NCBI RefSeq assembly: GCF_000336675.1
Contig: NZ_AOMB01000031.1
Location: 1-32,717 of the forward strand
Reading direction: 5' to 3'
DNA length: 32,717 nt
Source: Halococcus hamelinensis 100A6
Lineage (GTDB): Archaea > Halobacteriota > Halobacteria > Halobacteriales > Halococcaceae
The first letter of the stretch is position 1. The number at the start of each line of letters is the position of its first letter. Shown here in pieces: positions 10,054-32,717 of the stretch. The position numbers were made by a program, and so were the translations under genes. Below the pieces are notes generated by a model. It saw nothing but the letters and a program-made list of their open reading frames with translations, ran no database searches and was not told the DNA's origin.

Positions 10054-11934
10054 ATGTCACAACACAGCGATGACGAAACATGGACGGCGGCGGATTCACC
10101 CGTGAACGAACCGGAGGAGGGCGGGGAAGATCGGGAACTGGAGACCAGAGCGGGAAGCGACCGCCGAACGTTTCTGAAGGGATCCGCCGTCGCGCTCGGG
10201 GCGGGGGCGCTGTCGGTGAGCGCCGGTCGCGCGTCCGCGTGGGACGACGAACGCGAGCGGATCGACCGGGTCGATACGGCCACCAGCAGCGACGGGATGG
10301 TCGCCGCGAGCGACCCGCGAGCGGTCACGGCCGGCACCGACGTGCTCGACGCGGGCGGCAACGCGGTCGACGCGGCGGTCGCGGTCCAGTTCGCGCTCAA
10401 CGCCGTCCAGCCACACACCTCGGGCCTCGGCGGTGGCGGTTTCATGGTGGTCTACGACGCCGAGGAGGACGAGCTCTACGCGATCGACAACCGCGAACGC
10501 GCGCCCTTCGGCGCGACACCCGACATGTTCCTCGACGATGGCGAACCCATCCCGTTCGAGACGCGCATCACGCTCGGCCAGGCGGTCGGGGTTCCCGGGA
10601 CGTTCAAGGCGTGCGACGTCGCGCTGAAGCGCTTCGGCACCCACGAGGTCGAGGAGCTGATCCAGCCCGCCATCGACCTCGCCAACGGAGCCCGGGTCGA
10701 CGACTACCTCGCTCGCACGATCGAGGAGGAACACGGGAAGTTCAACGACGCCGCCCGCGCGGTGTTCGCACCCGGCGGCGAACCGCTCGGCGTCGGCGAC
10801 GAACTCGTCCAGCCCGACCTCGCGTCGACGTTCGAGACGGTCGCCGAGGAGGGCGTCGGGGCCGTCTACAAGGGGGAGGTCGGCGAGGCGCTCGCCGAGA
10901 CCGTCCAGGAGAACGGCGGGAGCATGACCCCCGCCGACCTCGGGGCGTACAACGTCACGATCGACATCCCGGAGTACGTCGAGTACGGCGACGTCACGGT
11001 GCGAACCCAGCCGCTGCCGAGCTCCGGCGGGCTGACGATCGCGGGGATCCTCGCGCTGCTCGAACCGCTGGACCTCGGCCAGTACGACCGCCAGTCGATC
11101 GAGGTCTACCAGCGGCTCGCCGAAGTCTTCAAACTCGCCTACGCCGACCGCGGCGAGTACATGGGCGACAAGCAGTTCGTGGACGCCCCGTGGCAGGGGC
11201 TGCTGGACCCGGACTACCTCGACGAACGCCGCGGGATGATCAGCTACGAGCGGGCGACGACCGGGACACAGGAGCCCGGCGACCCGTGGAGCTATCAGCC
11301 CGGGTCGCCCTACGCGATCGACCCGCTCACTCCCGACGACGTGGGCGCGATTCAGGACGCACCGCGCCCGTCGATAGCGAACCCGCTCGGCAGCACGACC
11401 CACTTCACCACCGCCGACGCGGAGGGAAACTTGGTCTCGTGGACGAGCACCATCGAACAGCTGTTCGGGAGCGGGCTGATGGTACCCGACTACGGGTTCA
11501 TGCTCAACAACGAGCTCACCGACTTCGACGCCCAGCCCGGCGGGCCGAACGAGGTCCAGCCGTTGAAACGCCCGCTCAGTTCGACGAGCCCCACCATCGT
11601 CTTCCGCGACGGCGAGCCGTTCCTCACCGTCGGGTCGCCCGGCGGCACGACCATCATCACGACCGTCGCGGAAGTGATCTTGAACCTCGTGGAGTTCGAC
11701 ATGGACCTCGCAGAGGCGGTCGCCGAACCGCGCTTCTACGGCAACTCCGGTCCGACGGTCTACCCCGAAGCCTCCGTTCCCGAAGGGATACAGAGCGGGC
11801 TTCGCGAGCGGGGATACGACGTCTCACCCTTCACGACGCTCGGCAACGTCATGGCGATCCAGATCGATCAGCAGACGGGCGAGTACACCGGGGCGGCGGA
11901 CTTCCGGAACGGCGGGGTTGCGTACGGTCCCTGA
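10054..11934 (+). CDS. ggt: gamma-glutamyltransferase with Tat signal
   Basis: A 626-residue proenzyme of the N-terminal-nucleophile hydrolase superfamily that cleaves or transfers gamma-glutamyl groups. A twin-arginine signal (SDRRTFLK, arginines 37-38, followed by the hydrophobic GSAVALGAGALSVSAG) directs it out of the cell folded; cleavage is likely near residues 60-62. The self-cleavage and nucleophile site is GSTTHFT, with T448 the expected new N-terminus of the small subunit; GSPGGTTIITT is the conserved glycine loop. Haloarchaea use gamma-glutamylcysteine rather than glutathione, so an external enzyme could recover such compounds or digest gamma-glutamyl polymers. It is convergent with the esterase gene, with 14 bases between the stops. 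Confidence 0.95.
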   Translation: MSQHSDDETWTAADSPVNEPEEGGEDRELETRAGSDRRTFLKGSAVALGAGALSVSAGRASAWDDERERIDRVDTATSSDGMVAASDPRAVTAGTDVLDAGGNAVDAAVAVQFALNAVQPHTSGLGGGGFMVVYDAEEDELYAIDNRERAPFGATPDMFLDDGEPIPFETRITLGQAVGVPGTFKACDVALKRFGTHEVEELIQPAIDLANGARVDDYLARTIEEEHGKFNDAARAVFAPGGEPLGVGDELVQPDLASTFETVAEEGVGAVYKGEVGEALAETVQENGGSMTPADLGAYNVTIDIPEYVEYGDVTVRTQPLPSSGGLTIAGILALLEPLDLGQYDRQSIEVYQRLAEVFKLAYADRGEYMGDKQFVDAPWQGLLDPDYLDERRGMISYERATTGTQEPGDPWSYQPGSPYAIDPLTPDDVGAIQDAPRPSIANPLGSTTHFTTADAEGNLVSWTSTIEQLFGSGLMVPDYGFMLNNELTDFDAQPGGPNEVQPLKRPLSSTSPTIVFRDGEPFLTVGSPGGTTIITTVAEVILNLVEFDMDLAEAVAEPRFYGNSGPTVYPEASVPEGIQSGLRERGYDVSPFTTLGNVMAIQIDQQTGEYTGAADFRNGGVAYGP

Positions 11935-19463: not shown

Positions 19464-21113
19464 TCAGTCGTCGTCCTCCGTGGTCCCCTGGTCGCCCGTC
19501 GTTCCGTCCGCGGACCGGTCGCGACCGAAGATGACCGTCTCCTCCTGGAAGAGGAGGTTGCCGTACTGCTCGCGGAACGACTTCGCGAGCCCGAGGACCG
19601 CGAGGAGGCAGACGATGGCGAACGGGCCGCCCGTGATGATCGCGGCGGACTGGAGCGCGTCGACGCCGCCGATGACCATCAGCACCGACGCGACGGCACC
19701 CAACATCAGTCCCCAGAACACCCGGATCACCGTCGAGGGGTGCTCCTCGCCGCCGGTGGTCATCATCGAGACGGCGAGCGTCGAGGAGTCGGCCGACGTG
19801 ATGAAGAAGGTCGTCACGAGCACGAGAAAGCCCGCCAGCAGGAACATCCCGCCGGGCAGCGCGCCGTAGAGCACGTAGCCCGAGACCGACTCGCCGAGCC
19901 GGTTGATCGGTCCGAGGAGGTTCGCGCCACCCGAGTGCTGGAGCCAGACGCCGGTGCCGCCGAGCACGATGAACCACGGGGTGGTCGCGATCCCGGTCGC
20001 GCCGATGCCGGTGAAGGCGACCTCGCGGACGGAGCGCCCCCGCGATATCCGCGCGATGAACAGCCCCGCGAACGGCGACCACGCGAGCGGCCAGGCCCAG
20101 TAGAAGACCGTCCAGGCGTTCGCCCACTGGCCGTTGTTGGCGGTGTCGATGAAGAGGCTCATCGCGACGAAATCGGTGACGAACCCGCCGAGGGCGTCGG
20201 TTCCGAGCTGGAGGACGAACCAGGTCGGCCCGACGACGAGCGTGGCGACAAGCAACACGGCGAACAGCCCCATATTGAAGTTCGAGAGCCGGCGGATGCC
20301 CTTGTCGACGCCGAGCACCACCGATATCGTGAAGACGAGGGTCATCCCGGTGATCACGAGGAACGTGCCGACGTCGCCGAACTGGATCCCCCACTGGAAC
20401 CGGAGACCGGTGAGGAACTGGCTCCCGATGAACCCGAGCGAGGTCGAGACGCCGCCGAGCGTCGCGAACACCGCGACGATGTCGATGAGCTTCGCCCAGT
20501 AGCTGTCGGCGACGTTCTCCGCTCCGATGAACGGCGTCAGAACCGAGGAGACGCGCAACGGCGCGCCGTGGTTGTAGACGTAGTAGCCGATGCCGAGCCC
20601 CATCACCGTGAAACACGACCACTGGGTGAGCGCCCAGTGAAACATCGAGTACTGGACCGCGATCGGCATCGCGGCGGCCGAGCTATCCGCCACACCGCCG
20701 TAGAGCGGCGGGACGGTCGCGTAGTGGAGCAACGCCTCGGCGGGGCCCCAGAAGACGATGCCCGCGGCGAGCCCCGCCGAGTACATCATCGTGAAGTAGG
20801 AGACGAAACTGTACTCCGGCGGGTCGTCGCCGAACCGGAGGTTCCCCCACGGGCCGAGGATGAGGAAGAAGAGGAACGCGACGAAGAACAGCATTACGAT
20901 GAGGAAGGCCCAGTTGAAGTGCGCGAGCACGAACCCGTTCGCGCCCGAAACGAGGTCGGCGGCGGTCTGAGGAGCGAGCGCGAACACCACGACGAACAGC
21001 AGGGTGAGCCCCGCCCCGAAGGCGAAGACGATCGGGTCGATCTCGTCGACGAACGCCGCAAGCGGCCCGGAGCCGTCGGCCCGACTCATCGCGACCGTCC
21101 CTCCGTCCTCCAT
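19464..21113 (-). CDS. BCCT-family osmolyte transporter
   Basis: A 549-residue carrier with about 12 hydrophobic helices from residue 28 to about 515 and an acidic C-terminal tail. BCCT hallmarks: FFLILGPWGNLRFGDD near the third helix, GLAAGIVFWGPAEALLHY in the unwound Gly-rich helix, and FYWAWPLAWSPFAGLFIARISRGRSVRE in the helix carrying substrate-box tryptophans. Compared with BetP, the Trp-Trp pair in that helix is Trp-Pro here. Family substrates include betaine, choline, carnitine and ectoine. The start is ATG 21113; ATG 21089 is an alternative. The gene diverges from the ectoine-hydrolase-like gene, which hints at a substrate. Confidence 0.95.
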   Translation of the reverse strand: MEDGGTVAMSRADGSGPLAAFVDEIDPIVFAFGAGLTLLFVVVFALAPQTAADLVSGANGFVLAHFNWAFLIVMLFFVAFLFFLILGPWGNLRFGDDPPEYSFVSYFTMMYSAGLAAGIVFWGPAEALLHYATVPPLYGGVADSSAAAMPIAVQYSMFHWALTQWSCFTVMGLGIGYYVYNHGAPLRVSSVLTPFIGAENVADSYWAKLIDIVAVFATLGGVSTSLGFIGSQFLTGLRFQWGIQFGDVGTFLVITGMTLVFTISVVLGVDKGIRRLSNFNMGLFAVLLVATLVVGPTWFVLQLGTDALGGFVTDFVAMSLFIDTANNGQWANAWTVFYWAWPLAWSPFAGLFIARISRGRSVREVAFTGIGATGIATTPWFIVLGGTGVWLQHSGGANLLGPINRLGESVSGYVLYGALPGGMFLLAGFLVLVTTFFITSADSSTLAVSMMTTGGEEHPSTVIRVFWGLMLGAVASVLMVIGGVDALQSAAIITGGPFAIVCLLAVLGLAKSFREQYGNLLFQEETVIFGRDRSADGTTGDQGTTEDDD

Positions 21114-21133
21114 CCCGTTCGTCCACGGTGCGG

Positions 21134-21146
21134 CGATGGGCCATCG
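21134..21146. promoter_or_regulatory. palindrome in the BCCT/ectoine-hydrolase divergent region
   Basis: CGATGG-G-CCATCG is a perfect 13-base palindrome, 21 bases before the BCCT start codon. A looser pair, CCCGTTC (21114-21120) and GAACGGG (21150-21156), encloses it. The 277-base divergent region also has a TATA-like ATACTATG at 21352-21359 serving the rightward gene. Confidence 0.35.
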
Positions 21147-21390
21147 AGAGAACGGGTACGGTGAGGAGAGAGGTGAGAGATACGTGTCATCTGTTGACTA
21201 CCACCGTACGAACCGGAGCGATCAGGTTAACTGTTGTGGAGATCGGGGTTTCGGTCGGTGGATCGTGTGAATTCGAACCAAAGCGTCGCACGGGCCGTAG
21301 ACCGGACGGAAGGAAGCGGGTGGACGGAGCGGTCGGGTGAGGGGACACGAGATACTATGTACCCGCTGACCGAAACGGGAGGGAGACAGC

Positions 21391-22566
21391 ATGCCAGGGG
21401 ACGTCTTCGAGGCTGCCGAGTACGACCGACGGATCGCACGGACGAGGGAACGTCTGGCCGAGGCGGGGCTGGACGCGGTGTTCGTCACCGACCCGTCGAA
21501 CATGAACTACCTCACCGGCTACGACGGCTGGTCGTTCTACGTCCACCAGGGCGTGGTCGTCACGCGGGACCACGACCCGGTCTGGGTGGGGCGGCAGATG
21601 GACGCCATCGGCGCGCGAGCGACGACGTCCCTCCCCGAGGCGGACATCCGCGCGTACAGTGACGACCACGTCCACTCGCCCCACGACCGCCACCCGATGG
21701 ACGTCGTCGCCGACGTTCTCGCAGATCTCGGGGTCGACGACGGTCGGATCGGGCTCGAGATGGACGCCTACTACTTCACCGCGAAGTCCTACACCCGTCT
21801 CCAGGAACGACTCCCCGAAACCGAGTTCGCCGACGCCACGCTGCTGGTCAACTGGGTTCGGGTGAAGAAATCCGAACAGGAGTTGGAGTACATGCGCCAG
21901 GCCGCCCGGATCTCCGAGAACGCGATGGCAGCGGGCCTCGACGCCATCGAGGAGGGCGTGCCGGAGTACGAGGCGGTCGAAGCCATCTACTCGGCGCTCA
22001 TCGAGGGCACCGAGGACTACGGCGGCGACTATCCCTCGATCGTGCCGCTGTTGCCCTCCGGTGACTACACCGGCGCACCCCACCTGACCTGGACCGACGA
22101 GCCGTTTTCCGCAGGTGATCCCGTGGTCATCGAACTCGCGGGCTGTCGCCACCGCTATCACTCGCCGCTCGCCCGAACGACGTTCGTCGGCGATCCACCC
22201 GACGAGATCGCCGAAACCGCGTCGGTCGTCGTCGACGGTCTGGAGGCCGCGCTCGATACGGTCAAGCCGGGCGTCACCTGCGAGACCGTCGAGGAGGCCT
22301 GGCGCGAGGAGGTCGCGAAACACGGTATCGAGAAGGCCGACCGCATCGGCTACTCGGTGGGCCTCGGCTACCCGCCGGACTGGGGCGAACACACCGCCAG
22401 CCTCCGACCGGGCGACGAGACGGTGCTGGAGGAGGACATGACCTTCCACACGATCCCCGCCCTCTGGTTCGACGAGTTCGGCGTCGAACTCAGCGAGACG
22501 TTCCGGGTGACCGCGACGGGCGTCGAGACCTTAGCGGAGTTCCCCCGTCGGCTGTTCACCACGTAA
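21391..22566 (+). CDS. doeA: ectoine hydrolase DoeA/EutD-like (M24 fold)
   Basis: A 391-residue creatinase/prolidase-fold protein. I recognise the ectoine hydrolase signature: TDPSNMNYLTGYDGWSFYVHQ near 33-53, VNWVRVKKS near 153, GGDYPSIVPLLPSG near 211-224, APHLTWTD and GLGYPPDWGEH. Bacterial DoeA/EutD opens the ectoine ring to N-acetyl-diaminobutyrate. As expected for that group, the metal ligands of M24 peptidases are replaced: the first Asp by E248 (VIELAG), the second by Pro (YHSPLART), and the His by Tyr (GYSVG). GGGAGGG lies about 7 bases before ATG 21391. DoeB-type deacetylase and later enzymes are not adjacent. It could act on another cyclic amidine. Confidence 0.75.
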   Translation: MPGDVFEAAEYDRRIARTRERLAEAGLDAVFVTDPSNMNYLTGYDGWSFYVHQGVVVTRDHDPVWVGRQMDAIGARATTSLPEADIRAYSDDHVHSPHDRHPMDVVADVLADLGVDDGRIGLEMDAYYFTAKSYTRLQERLPETEFADATLLVNWVRVKKSEQELEYMRQAARISENAMAAGLDAIEEGVPEYEAVEAIYSALIEGTEDYGGDYPSIVPLLPSGDYTGAPHLTWTDEPFSAGDPVVIELAGCRHRYHSPLARTTFVGDPPDEIAETASVVVDGLEAALDTVKPGVTCETVEEAWREEVAKHGIEKADRIGYSVGLGYPPDWGEHTASLRPGDETVLEEDMTFHTIPALWFDEFGVELSETFRVTATGVETLAEFPRRLFTT

Positions 22567-22786
22567 ACGGCCCGAAGAGGGCCGACCGGACGACGACACG
22601 ACCGGTCCGCCGGGTTCGAGTGTCGAGCCCGCGCCGAACACAACGATTTTAGCGGATGCCGAATACGTCGCCGTGTATGGGCAGGAAAACGATGCAACGA
22701 CCGACGACCGTCCGATCCGCGACCGCCCGGCGAGCGAGGGTGGGGACGGGGAAGGAACGAACCGGGCCGGAGGCCGAGTCGGACGA

Positions 22787-23947
22787 ATGACGTCGAACGA
22801 CGACGACCGACTCGATACGGTCTCGATCCACGCGGGCGAGCGCGAGACGAACGACGCGCTGGTGACGCCGATCTACGCCAACGCGACCTACCGGTACGAC
22901 TCGCCAAGCGAGCGCGGCGAGTACCGCTACTCCCGGATGGCCGCTCCGACGCGGGCCGACCTCGAAGCGGTAGTGGCGGACCTCGAAGGCGCGGCCCACG
23001 CGAAGGTGTTCGCGAGCGGTATGGCGGCGATCGACGCGGTCTTTTCCCTGCTCTCGGCGGGCGACCACGTCGTCGCGGGCGACAGCCTCTACGCCGAGAC
23101 CTACGACCTGCTCGCCGAGTTCTACCCGCGATACGGGATCGAGGTGAGCTACGTCGACGTCACGGACCCCGAGGCGGTTCGCGAGGCGGTCGGGGAGGAC
23201 ACCGCGCTCGTCTACGCCGAGAGTCCGACGAACCCGCTCCTCCGGATCACCGACCTGGAGACGACGGCGGCTATCGCCCACGAGGCCGACGCCCTCCTCG
23301 CCGTGGACAACACGTTCGCGTCGCCCGCGCTCCAGCGCCCGGTCGAACGCGGCGCGGACCTCGTCGTCGAGTCGCTCACGAAGTATCTCGGTGGCCACTC
23401 CGACGCCATCGCCGGATCCGTGGCGACCGACGACGACGCCCTCGCCGAGCGGATCTGGCGTATCCAGTACACTCGCGGGGCGGTCGTCGGCCCGTTCGAG
23501 GCGTTCCTCGTTCGGCGGGGGATCAAGACGCTGGGCGCGCGGATGGACCGCCACTGTCACAACGCGGCGCTCCTCGCCGACCTGCTCGACGGCCACGACG
23601 CCGTCGAGCGGGTTCACTATCCGGGGCTCGCCTCCCACCCCGGCCACGAGGTCGCCGCCGAACAGATGGCCGACTTCGGCGGGATGCTGTCGTTCGAGCT
23701 CGCGGGCGGGGTCGAGGACGCGGTCGCGTTCGTCGCGGCGCTGGAGACGATCACGATCGCCGAGAGCCTCGGCGGGGTCGAGAGCCTCATCGAGGTCCCC
23801 GCCGCGATGACCCACCAGAACCTCGCACCGACCGAACTCGACGCCGCCGGGATCGACCCCGGACTCGTCCGCCTCAGCGTCGGCATCGAACGGAGCGAGG
23901 ACCTGGTGGCGGACGTCGAACGGGGGCTGGACGCCGTTACGCGATGA
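22787..23947 (+). CDS. cystathionine gamma-synthase/lyase family PLP enzyme
   Basis: A 386-residue member of the Cys/Met-metabolism PLP family. The PLP lysine is K199 (ESLTKYLGGHSDA), the ring-binding aspartate is D174 (VDNTFASP), and TIAESLGGVESLIEVPAAMTH near the C-terminus is the conserved substrate-side loop. The usual YSRxGNPT is YSRMAAPT here, so the Asn is lost. Members make or split cystathionine, O-acylhomoserine or methionine. ATG 22787 gives the normal family length; a GTG at 22673 would add 38 low-complexity acidic residues, but an AT-rich box at 22644-22653 would start the mRNA at about 22675, leaving it as leader. It lies 220 bases after doeA, same strand. Confidence 0.9.
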   Translation: MTSNDDDRLDTVSIHAGERETNDALVTPIYANATYRYDSPSERGEYRYSRMAAPTRADLEAVVADLEGAAHAKVFASGMAAIDAVFSLLSAGDHVVAGDSLYAETYDLLAEFYPRYGIEVSYVDVTDPEAVREAVGEDTALVYAESPTNPLLRITDLETTAAIAHEADALLAVDNTFASPALQRPVERGADLVVESLTKYLGGHSDAIAGSVATDDDALAERIWRIQYTRGAVVGPFEAFLVRRGIKTLGARMDRHCHNAALLADLLDGHDAVERVHYPGLASHPGHEVAAEQMADFGGMLSFELAGGVEDAVAFVAALETITIAESLGGVESLIEVPAAMTHQNLAPTELDAAGIDPGLVRLSVGIERSEDLVADVERGLDAVTR

Positions 23948-27798: not shown

Positions 27799-28191
27799 TC
27801 AGGCGTCGTCGCCGAATCGATCGATGTCGCGCTGGAGGCGCACGAGCTCGGCACGCTGTGCGGCGAGGTTCGCGATGTGGTCGTCGAGCTTCTCGATGGT
27901 TCCGTCGACCGTCGCGGCGAGCGAATCGAGGTCGTGCTCGCCGGCCTCGATGCGGGCGCGGCGGATGTGTTTGCAGTCCGCATCCCGATACATGAAGTCC
28001 GGGCAGGTGCACGACGGGGTTCGGATGTCCACGAGGTACTCGGTGCCGTCCTCGCTGTAGACCCGGTAGACGTCCGGCCCGTGTTCGAGGACGACCAGCC
28101 GCTCGGAGAGCGCTCGCCGGTCGCGCCTGTCGATCGCGTGCTTGAACGGCCGCGTCGCGAGCGCGTCGTCGTACGATGTGGTCGTGCTCAT
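27799..28191 (-). CDS. SWIM zinc-finger protein
   Basis: A 130-residue protein. The SWIM motif CxCx(n)CxH is CTCPDFMYRDADCKH near residues 60-74, preceded by the strand pair YRVYSEDGTEYLVDIRT usual for this finger. The C-terminal 50 residues form a predicted coiled coil (LDSLAATVDGTIEKLDDHIANLAAQRAELVRLQ read in parts). SWIM fingers bind DNA or proteins; in archaea, short stand-alone SWIM proteins are common and uncharacterised. The start is ATG 28191. It is convergent with the NRAMP-like gene across 53 bases. Confidence 0.9.
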   Translation of the reverse strand: MSTTTSYDDALATRPFKHAIDRRDRRALSERLVVLEHGPDVYRVYSEDGTEYLVDIRTPSCTCPDFMYRDADCKHIRRARIEAGEHDLDSLAATVDGTIEKLDDHIANLAAQRAELVRLQRDIDRFGDDA

Positions 28192-31612: not shown

Positions 31613-32717
31613 TCGGCCGCCACGAACCGGCCGTCCCAGTGGAGGTCGCCGTCGACCTTCGCCGGGACCCCCTCGGCCGCCAGCAGCCGTTCGAGGTCGG
31701 CGACCGAGCACTCGAACGTCCTGACCGTCCCCGACGAGAGGTGGTACTCGCTCTCGCCGTCGACGCAGGGGACGAAGAGGCTCCCCATCCCGCGTTCGGC
31801 CGTCGGGTAGGTCCGGTGTTCGACCCGAAGTCCGTCGTCCGTCCGCTCGGCCACGTAGAGGTTCGGCGTCCCGCTCTCGGCGTGAGCGATGGTGAACCCG
31901 CCGTCGCCGACGACGAGATACTGGCCGCCGACGATGATCTCGTCGCGGGCGATCTCGAGGGCGGCCCGCAGCGGGAAGCCGGCGTTGAGCAAGCCCGCGA
32001 ACGCCCGGCCCATCGCCACCGCGTTCCGGTTCAGTACGTCCGAGAGGGTGACGATGCCGCCGATGGAACCCTTCCGGATCAGGCTCATGCCCTGCTCGTA
32101 GGATTGACAGGCGTTGAGTAGGAAGGCGTTGACCCCGACCGAGTCCAGCGTCGCGGCGTCGAGCGTCCCGTCGAGACACTCGAAGCCGGCACCGTCGATG
32201 TGGCCGATGTAGTGGAGGAGGTCGGTCCGCTTTTCGAGGGTCGCACGGAGTTCGTCGACGGTGAGGTCGCGCTCGACGGCGACGTCGAACGGGAGGTCCT
32301 GGTCGCCGTAGATCGTATCGACCAGCCCCTCTTCCTCGCCCATCTCGGCATCGTTGCAGACCACCCGAACGGTGATGTCGCCCTCCGTCGGCGTGCGGTC
32401 GAGGCGGTTCCGATGTGCTTCGGTCGTGGCCTTGCTCGCCCCCAGCGGCGTCCCGTCCCCGACCCACGCCTGTTCGAGCGAGTCCGCCGCCGCGAGCCGG
32501 ACGAACTGCGGGGGCTCGCTGGAACGGGCGGCGACGCCCCGGCTGGTCTCGGGACCGCTTCCCCGGAGGAACTCGTCGAGCGTGGCGGCCCAGACGTTCG
32601 AGACCGCGACCTCGTGAGTGTGCGGCGACCGGACGACGGCGAGGTCGTCGACGAGGAAGGGGAGCATCTCGACGCTGTCGGGGGTGGGCTCGACGTGGGC
32701 GGTGAGCTTCCACTGGG
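31597..32717 (-). CDS. CHAT-domain (caspase-like) protease, C-terminal part
   Basis: The frame is open to the right edge, so the N-terminus is missing; ATG 32667 is internal because the reading continues upstream with protein-like sequence. About 372 residues are visible. The CHAT (caspase, HetF-associated) catalytic pair is clear: the histidine in LLHYIGHIDGAG and the cysteine in FLLNACQSYEQG, followed by GIVTLSDVLNRNAVAMGRAFAG, which resembles the post-cysteine helix of the family. A C-terminal segment of about 150 residues follows the protease core. CHAT proteins cleave partners in stress or immune pathways such as the Craspase effector, but many are uncharacterised. The stop is TAG 31599-31597. 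Confidence 0.85.
   Translation of the reverse strand, partial: QWKLTAHVEPTPDSVEMLPFLVDDLAVVRSPHTHEVAVSNVWAATLDEFLRGSGPETSRGVAARSSEPPQFVRLAAADSLEQAWVGDGTPLGASKATTEAHRNRLDRTPTEGDITVRVVCNDAEMGEEEGLVDTIYGDQDLPFDVAVERDLTVDELRATLEKRTDLLHYIGHIDGAGFECLDGTLDAATLDSVGVNAFLLNACQSYEQGMSLIRKGSIGGIVTLSDVLNRNAVAMGRAFAGLLNAGFPLRAALEIARDEIIVGGQYLVVGDGGFTIAHAESGTPNLYVAERTDDGLRVEHRTYPTAERGMGSLFVPCVDGESEYHLSSGTVRTFECSVADLERLLAAEGVPAKVDGDLHWDGRFVAADYGPE

Follow-up and report, generated by a model that had tools for sequence, protein, structure and literature searches.

A divergent BCCT carrier and DoeA/EutD-like hydrolase gene pair as a probable ectoine uptake and ring-opening module of haloarchaea

Haloarchaea follow a salt-in strategy and share their brines with salt-out bacteria that hold large ectoine pools. 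Do some of them consume this ectoine? The question is raised by a window of 32,717 nt (the whole stretch of DNA analysed here), which is part of contig C31 (118 kb) in a haloarchaeal genome of 3.4 Mb and 96% completeness, and for which a sequence-only reading had proposed an ectoine-scavenging unit of two divergent genes, one encoding a BCCT-family carrier and the other an M24-fold enzyme. We found both open reading frames (ORFs) exactly where that reading had placed them, on opposite strands with start codons 277 bp apart, and conclude that the pair is probably the uptake-and-first-step module of a haloarchaeal system for the utilisation of ectoine, and probably also of 5-hydroxyectoine. Four genomes recur below: that of the window (G000), its sister species (G250) and two congeners (G209 and G323).

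19464-21113, minus strand: BCCT-family carrier (Pfam BCCT), 549 amino acids, ATG start; putative importer of ectoine and 5-hydroxyectoine
21391-22566, plus strand: predicted M24-fold DoeA/EutD-like ectoine hydrolase, 391 amino acids, ATG start; assigned by TIGR02993, structures 6twk, 6twj and 6yo9, alignment and tree

Sequence, fold and active site of the M24 protein

Pfam searches identified Peptidase_M24 (126.7 bits) and Creatinase_N (82.3 bits) in the M24 protein. Comparison with DoeA/EutD and with creatinase, a check proposed by the sequence-only reading, put DoeA far ahead: among solved structures, a sequence search matched H. elongata DoeA (6twk, 6twj) at E = 2e-116, versus 5e-25 for the next family, prolidase, and 6e-21 for creatinase (1chm). 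An AlphaFold model (predicted local distance difference test score, pLDDT, 87.7) aligned over its full length with the DoeA structures 6yo9, 6twk and 6twj (Z 46-47, 45-46% identity), whereas prolidases and creatinases reached a Z of at most 38.5 (37.7 for 1chm); Foldseek likewise separated DoeA (E = 1e-49) from the next match (8e-29). NCBIfam models scored 474.4 bits (TIGR02993, DoeA; curated equivalog cut-off, 613 bits), 237 bits (another DoeA model) and 85 bits (archaeal prolidase).

Alignment to the P. furiosus prolidase revealed that the D-D-H-E-E ligands of the two-metal site are lost, in the same pattern as in DoeA. Residue E248 of the window protein aligns with Glu255 of DoeA and is invariant in 43 of 43 aligned relatives. 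In H. elongata DoeA, Glu255 is reportedly the covalent nucleophile, according to a 2020 structure paper in the Journal of Biological Chemistry, and by analogy we propose this role for E248. The motifs LTGYDGWSFYVHQ and YPPDWGE also match DoeA, and of the 183 positions invariant across six DoeA proteins the window protein retains 73%. Sequence and modelled fold together indicate that the protein is DoeA/EutD-like, and neither a prolidase nor a creatinase. The DoeA/EutD identity suggested by the sequence-only reading is therefore upheld in sequence, structure and active-site residues, falls short in the curated score and is left open by the placement of the clade relative to tested DoeA; because the score lies under the cut-off and the haloarchaeal clade includes no tested enzyme, we use only the label DoeA-like.

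In a tree of 96 rows, the haloarchaeal M24 proteins formed one clade (support 100/100) within a 90-row superclade (100/100) that also contains DoeA proteins with DoeB neighbours and proteins from Bacillota and desulfobacteria. The inner order of this superclade is an open fork, at which the tree does not settle whether the haloarchaeal clade is sister to the biochemically tested DoeA enzymes or lies among them. The outcome that the sequence-only reading had set against itself, a grouping with prolidases or creatinases, did not occur, and on this phylogeny a prolidase or creatinase origin is excluded. The M24 proteins of the window species and G250 grouped with that of Halobium salinum (81%) and not with those of the congeners G209 and G323 (74%), while the window carrier was closest to the carrier of G323 (80-81%); the histories of the two genes are partly separate.

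Related M24 genes also occur in other settings. On rhizobial plasmids (L119, L185 and L187), pairs of DoeA-like M24 genes occur with ABC transporters (one annotated as polyamine-type), M20 aminoacylases or class-III aminotransferases, and these are candidates for a related pathway. Haladaptatus megaplasmids (L075 and L076) carry second M24 copies that lack the usual cluster and immediately follow a EutA-like gene; the copy in L076, with a longest ORF of 289 amino acids, may have a broken frame.

Pairing and substrate box of the carrier

The carrier matched Pfam BCCT over residues 29-515 (487.9 bits; gathering threshold, 27) and scored slightly under the TIGR00842 cut-off (393.5 versus 407.6 bits), with TmaT, DddT and BetP as its best relatives in the PDB. 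Across the class, the M24 protein is present in 144 of 391 genomes. Carriers of the subfamily found in the window, delimited by an E value of 2.5e-179 or better that was read off the results table, occurred in 137 of the 144 M24-positive genomes but in none of the 247 M24-negative ones (Fisher p = 5e-98, to be taken as nominal in view of the relatedness of the genomes and of a threshold chosen from the table). Relaxing the threshold to 1e-160 admitted 13 M24-negative genomes, all with weaker matches. Within the genus, such a carrier is confined to the four M24-positive genomes. Of the 130 M24 copies found on the same contig as one of these carriers, 116 are within 15 kb of it. This distribution supports the unit proposed from the letters of the window and marks the BCCT protein as the specific partner of the M24 enzyme. 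The pair is no rarity among haloarchaea, given its frequency in the class and the archaeal clusters already proposed in PMC13188858.

Which substrate might such a carrier bind? In the TmaT study, conservation of Trp146, Tyr154, Trp326 and Trp329 is reported to be restricted to quaternary-ammonium carriers, and Phe at the Tyr154 position is also listed as a marker of choline carriers (PMC11708041). Alignment mapped the aromatic box as follows:

W160, W165, F168, W341, P342 and W345: aromatic-box positions of the window carrier

The four TmaT residues correspond, in the same order, to W160, F168, P342 and W345. A full TmaT/BetP-type box, including Tyr154 and Trp326, was thus not found in the window carrier, which has F168 and P342 at these positions. 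All M24-linked haloarchaeal carriers seen have P or A at the Trp326 position and F at the Tyr154 position, and Bacillota carriers beside M24 genes, at ~35% identity, have V and F; in the genus of the window species, BCCT paralogues not linked to an M24 gene retain W and Y. In both lineages, the box of the linked carriers fits a substrate that has no trimethylammonium head, a description that does not by itself name ectoine.

A wider cluster in relatives

We surveyed 45 named haloarchaeal loci with an M24 gene, counting neighbours within 10 kb. A D-2-hydroxyacid dehydrogenase and an M20 amidohydrolase were found in 40 of these loci, a threonine-ammonia-lyase in 36, a class-III aminotransferase in 34 and a glutamate dehydrogenase in 26, and a BCCT carrier lay inside the fetched stretch in 23. 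The clusters of G209 and G323 additionally encode a second class-III aminotransferase, which is diaminobutyrate-aminotransferase-like (418 bits to PRK06938), together with Rid and a succinate-semialdehyde-dehydrogenase-like protein (607 bits to PRK09406). Halocatena marina (L045) has the same divergent BCCT-M24 layout as the window, with the full cluster still attached. A small SWIM-zinc-finger protein encoded in the window (27802-28191, minus strand) has a counterpart in G250 and another, 75% identical, in G209, where it lies ~2 kb from the M24 gene; the other loci fetched lacked one.

Similar gene sets surround M24 homologues in bacteria. Virgibacillus and Lentibacillus carry M24, hydroxyacid dehydrogenase, aminotransferase, succinate-semialdehyde dehydrogenase, M20 and EutB genes in one row, and in Desulfoferrobacter the set comprises glutamate dehydrogenase, M24, TRAP transporter, M20, EutB and Rid genes. 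EutB beside close M24 homologues passes its curated cut-off of 413 bits (Priestia, 435; Desulfoferrobacter, 433), and in two Haladaptatus replicons a EutA-like gene immediately precedes the M24 gene (132 bits, under its cut-off). An M20-type deacetylase has an annotated precedent in ectoine breakdown, namely DoeB2 of Tsukamurella. The Bacillota set PucR-EutB-M24-EutC-(CGS)-M20-dehydrogenases (Priestia plasmid, Virgibacillus), in which CGS stands for a cystathionine-gamma-synthase-family gene, resembles the haloarchaeal cluster in its M24 protein (55-58% identity) and in the parallel roles of M20 amidohydrolase, lyase, aminotransferase and semialdehyde dehydrogenase, but differs in having a true EutB, a PucR regulator and an ABC, ProP or distant BCCT transporter. 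A whole ectoine set, comprising an Ehu transporter, EutB/C-like proteins, DoeA and DoeB, was also seen, together with a CGS-family gene of the Priestia subfamily, on Klebsiella pneumoniae plasmid NZ_CP031815 (L120) and related Klebsiella plasmids from human and milk isolates.

We propose the following route. The BCCT carrier would import ectoine released by salt-out bacteria, presumably coupled to an ion as is usual in the family. The M24 enzyme, metal-free like H. elongata DoeA, would then attack ring carbon C-2 of ectoine through E248, and hydrolysis of the covalent intermediate would yield N-alpha-acetyl-diaminobutyrate. Where relatives have the full cluster, the M20 amidohydrolase may strip the acetyl group, class-III aminotransferases may turn diaminobutyrate into aspartate semialdehyde and a semialdehyde dehydrogenase may yield aspartate, with the threonine-ammonia-lyase and Rid possibly dealing with the hydroxylated product. 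Under this scheme, ectoine would serve as food rather than protection.

A reduced locus in the window species

The absence of DoeB, DoeC and DoeD from the window, already pointed out by the sequence-only reading, holds, and no DoeB/EutE partner gene lies adjacent to the M24 gene. The search for DoeB homologues that the same reading suggested found none over the cut-off of 402.7 bits in the genome; three weak matches (≤112 bits) to DoeB-like AspA/AstE proteins were not assigned, as Haloferax volcanii yielded matches in the same search too. G209 and G323 have orthologues of the M20, lyase, aminotransferase and diaminobutyrate-aminotransferase genes of the cluster, whereas none was found in G000 or G250. 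An assembly gap is unlikely to account for their absence from G000, given a completeness of 96% and the same result in the sister species. On these gene contents, the window species and its sister retain only the carrier and the ring-opening enzyme at the locus, and later steps, if they occur there, would have to rely on general enzymes, the candidates being M20, aminotransferase and dehydrogenase paralogues found throughout the genus. The suggestion that later steps lie elsewhere or differ is thus borne out in part, in that relatives appear to use an M20 amidohydrolase and class-III aminotransferases in place of DoeB and DoeD, while the genome search for a dedicated set in the window species came back empty.

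Several candidates for the later steps were set aside. A second M20 gene (contig C31:73841) is not linked, being also present in a congener that has no M24 gene, and the cluster aldehyde dehydrogenase is not specific, with copies at 86-88% in M24-negative congeners. A CGS-family gene next to the M24 gene (22673-23947) was left out as a pathway member since its subfamily differs and M24-free congeners carry copies at 48-55%: the CGS-family genes of the Klebsiella and Priestia ectoine clusters are PRK08249 (651 and 764 bits), whereas the window gene reaches only 334 bits to that model and scores best with PRK07811 (449). This Cys/Met pyridoxal-phosphate enzyme is the sole such gene found in the genome; its ORF as listed has ~40 surplus N-terminal residues, and the true start is probably near 22790, ~220 bp past the M24 stop. 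A search for ectoine synthase across the 391 genomes returned no match with a control that was likewise silent, and absence of synthesis is not claimed.

The retained pair is well preserved. Gene order across the region is the same in G250, at ~91% DNA identity, and between the two species the M24 gene has a ratio of nonsynonymous to synonymous substitution (dN/dS) of 0.13 and the carrier gene one of 0.10. These values reflect purifying selection, which argues that both ORFs are real genes encoding working proteins. Three features were noted between the start codons:

21114-21390, no strand: predicted shared divergent intergenic (promoter/operator) region, 277 bp from start codon to start codon
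21184-21246, no strand: conserved intergenic block, candidate common regulatory site, 59 of 63 positions identical in the sister species
21353-21361, plus strand: TATA-like sequence TACTATGTA, ~30 bp upstream of the M24 start codon; read directly, weak evidence

The block at 21184-21246 has 94% identity between the two species versus 63-67% in flanking intergenic DNA and is a candidate shared control site, on a basis of two species only. The TATA-like TACTATGTA is conserved in G250. A bacterial promoter scan, a method unsuited to archaea, gave no match.

Elsewhere in the window, a gamma-glutamyltranspeptidase-family protein is encoded at 10054-11931 (plus strand, 491 bits), where long overlapping ORFs are numerous. 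The 76 bp at the window end (32642-32717) are repeated exactly 1 bp further along the contig (L161 719-794), which represents either a tandem duplication or an assembly join.

Alternative explanations

In the window species and its sister, the unit may have been reduced or re-used, with the carrier taking up ectoine as an osmoprotectant and the enzyme trimming the pool, and no growth on ectoine. We regard this as rather doubtful, and it is compatible with ectoine utilisation in the relatives. Absence of the full cluster from both species points this way, as does the grouping of their M24 proteins with Halobium instead of with the full-cluster congeners, a sign of a locus shuffled by gain or loss. 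The low dN/dS values of both genes speak against a decaying pair, and so does the retention of the pair and its conserved intergenic block in both species.

Alternatively, the unit could import and open another small zwitterion (for example, a cyclic amidine or an N-acyl diamino acid), in which case the haloarchaeal, Bacillota and Desulfobacterota clade would have a sister function to ectoine hydrolase. We consider this unlikely. Several observations favour it or count against ectoine utilisation. By the TIGR02993 rule, the M24 protein at 474 of the required 613 bits is no DoeA equivalog, nor does any of the 391 genomes exceed that cut-off. Of 60 positions that distinguish DoeA from M24 paralogues, the window protein retains only 52% and haloarchaeal proteins on average 46%, compared with 21% in rhizobial paralogues annotated as Xaa-Pro peptidases. 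Some rhizobial M24 proteins with other transporters alongside fall in the same superclade, in which the position of the haloarchaeal clade is open, and clade membership is therefore no proof of substrate. The haloarchaeal cluster lyase scores as IlvA (398 bits) and not as EutB (246-266 bits), and the M20 protein reaches only 96 bits to DoeB2 (cut-off, 550); with both outside the Eut/Doe families, their roles are parallel and the proteins are not orthologues. F at the Tyr154 position of the carrier doubles as a choline-carrier marker (PMC11708041), and orthologues of the cluster M20, lyase and aminotransferase genes were not found in G000 or G250, which have only genus-wide paralogues. Standing against another zwitterion, the catalytic Glu, both motifs (LTGYDGWSFYVHQ and YPPDWGE) and the metal loss are all DoeA-like, and M24 genes of this kind have EutB, EutA-like, Ehu-like and diaminobutyrate-aminotransferase-like neighbours.

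Finally, an ordinary prolidase/aminopeptidase P or creatinase next to an unrelated betaine carrier, in keeping with the generic annotation in public records (M24 family metallopeptidase), is highly improbable given the absent metal ligands, the wide gap in both E value (2e-116 versus 5e-25) and fold (Z 46-47 versus ≤38.5), and the strict co-occurrence with the carrier.

Discussion

Ectoine import and ring opening thus remain the preferred reading of the pair. Relative to known DoeA/EutD (H. elongata 6twk, 6twj and 6yo9; TIGR02993), the window enzyme shares the M24 fold devoid of a metal site, the Glu255 equivalent, the motifs and ~46% identity, but it scores under the cut-off, belongs to a separate haloarchaeal clade and has no DoeB/EutE neighbour. 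The carrier can be likened to EctT, EctM, EctP and LcoP by family and proposed substrate (PMC5924519); its nearest solved relatives are TmaT, DddT and BetP.

A 2018 review placed ectoine consumers in Proteobacteria only (PMC5924519). On the basis of similarity, a metagenome study of 2023 attributed genes for ectoine degradation to Halobacteria (PMC10434110). In April 2026, a paper in Applied and Environmental Microbiology proposed clusters of EutD, aminotransferase and BCCT genes in haloarchaea, termed them provisional and reported >100 archaeal matches above 55% identity to Bacillus EutD (PMC13188858). Those clusters resemble the locus described here, except that the window retains BCCT and M24 genes only, and the available text offers, for archaea, neither co-occurrence figures nor residue analysis nor experiment. 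Our literature search for experiments on ectoine use by haloarchaea returned no such report. The idea of the sequence-only reading had thus been anticipated; new here are the near-exclusive pairing of carrier and enzyme, the signature of the carrier box, the evidence on the archaeal enzyme from its active site and fold, and the two-gene form.

More broadly, we see an even chance that over a third of haloarchaeal species have a dedicated ectoine-eating system, with its own type of BCCT carrier that misses part of the quaternary-ammonium box (as do unrelated Bacillota carriers encoded next to the same enzyme) and with a non-orthologous deacetylase and dehydratase, and that some species keep only the carrier and hydrolase and finish the pathway via general amino-acid enzymes. 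If true, so widespread an archaeal system would correct the Proteobacteria-only view of 2018 (PMC5924519), and archaeal ectoine scavenging would link both salt strategies in one food web. The strict pairing of enzyme and carrier may also offer a route to predicting the substrate of an anonymous BCCT subfamily.

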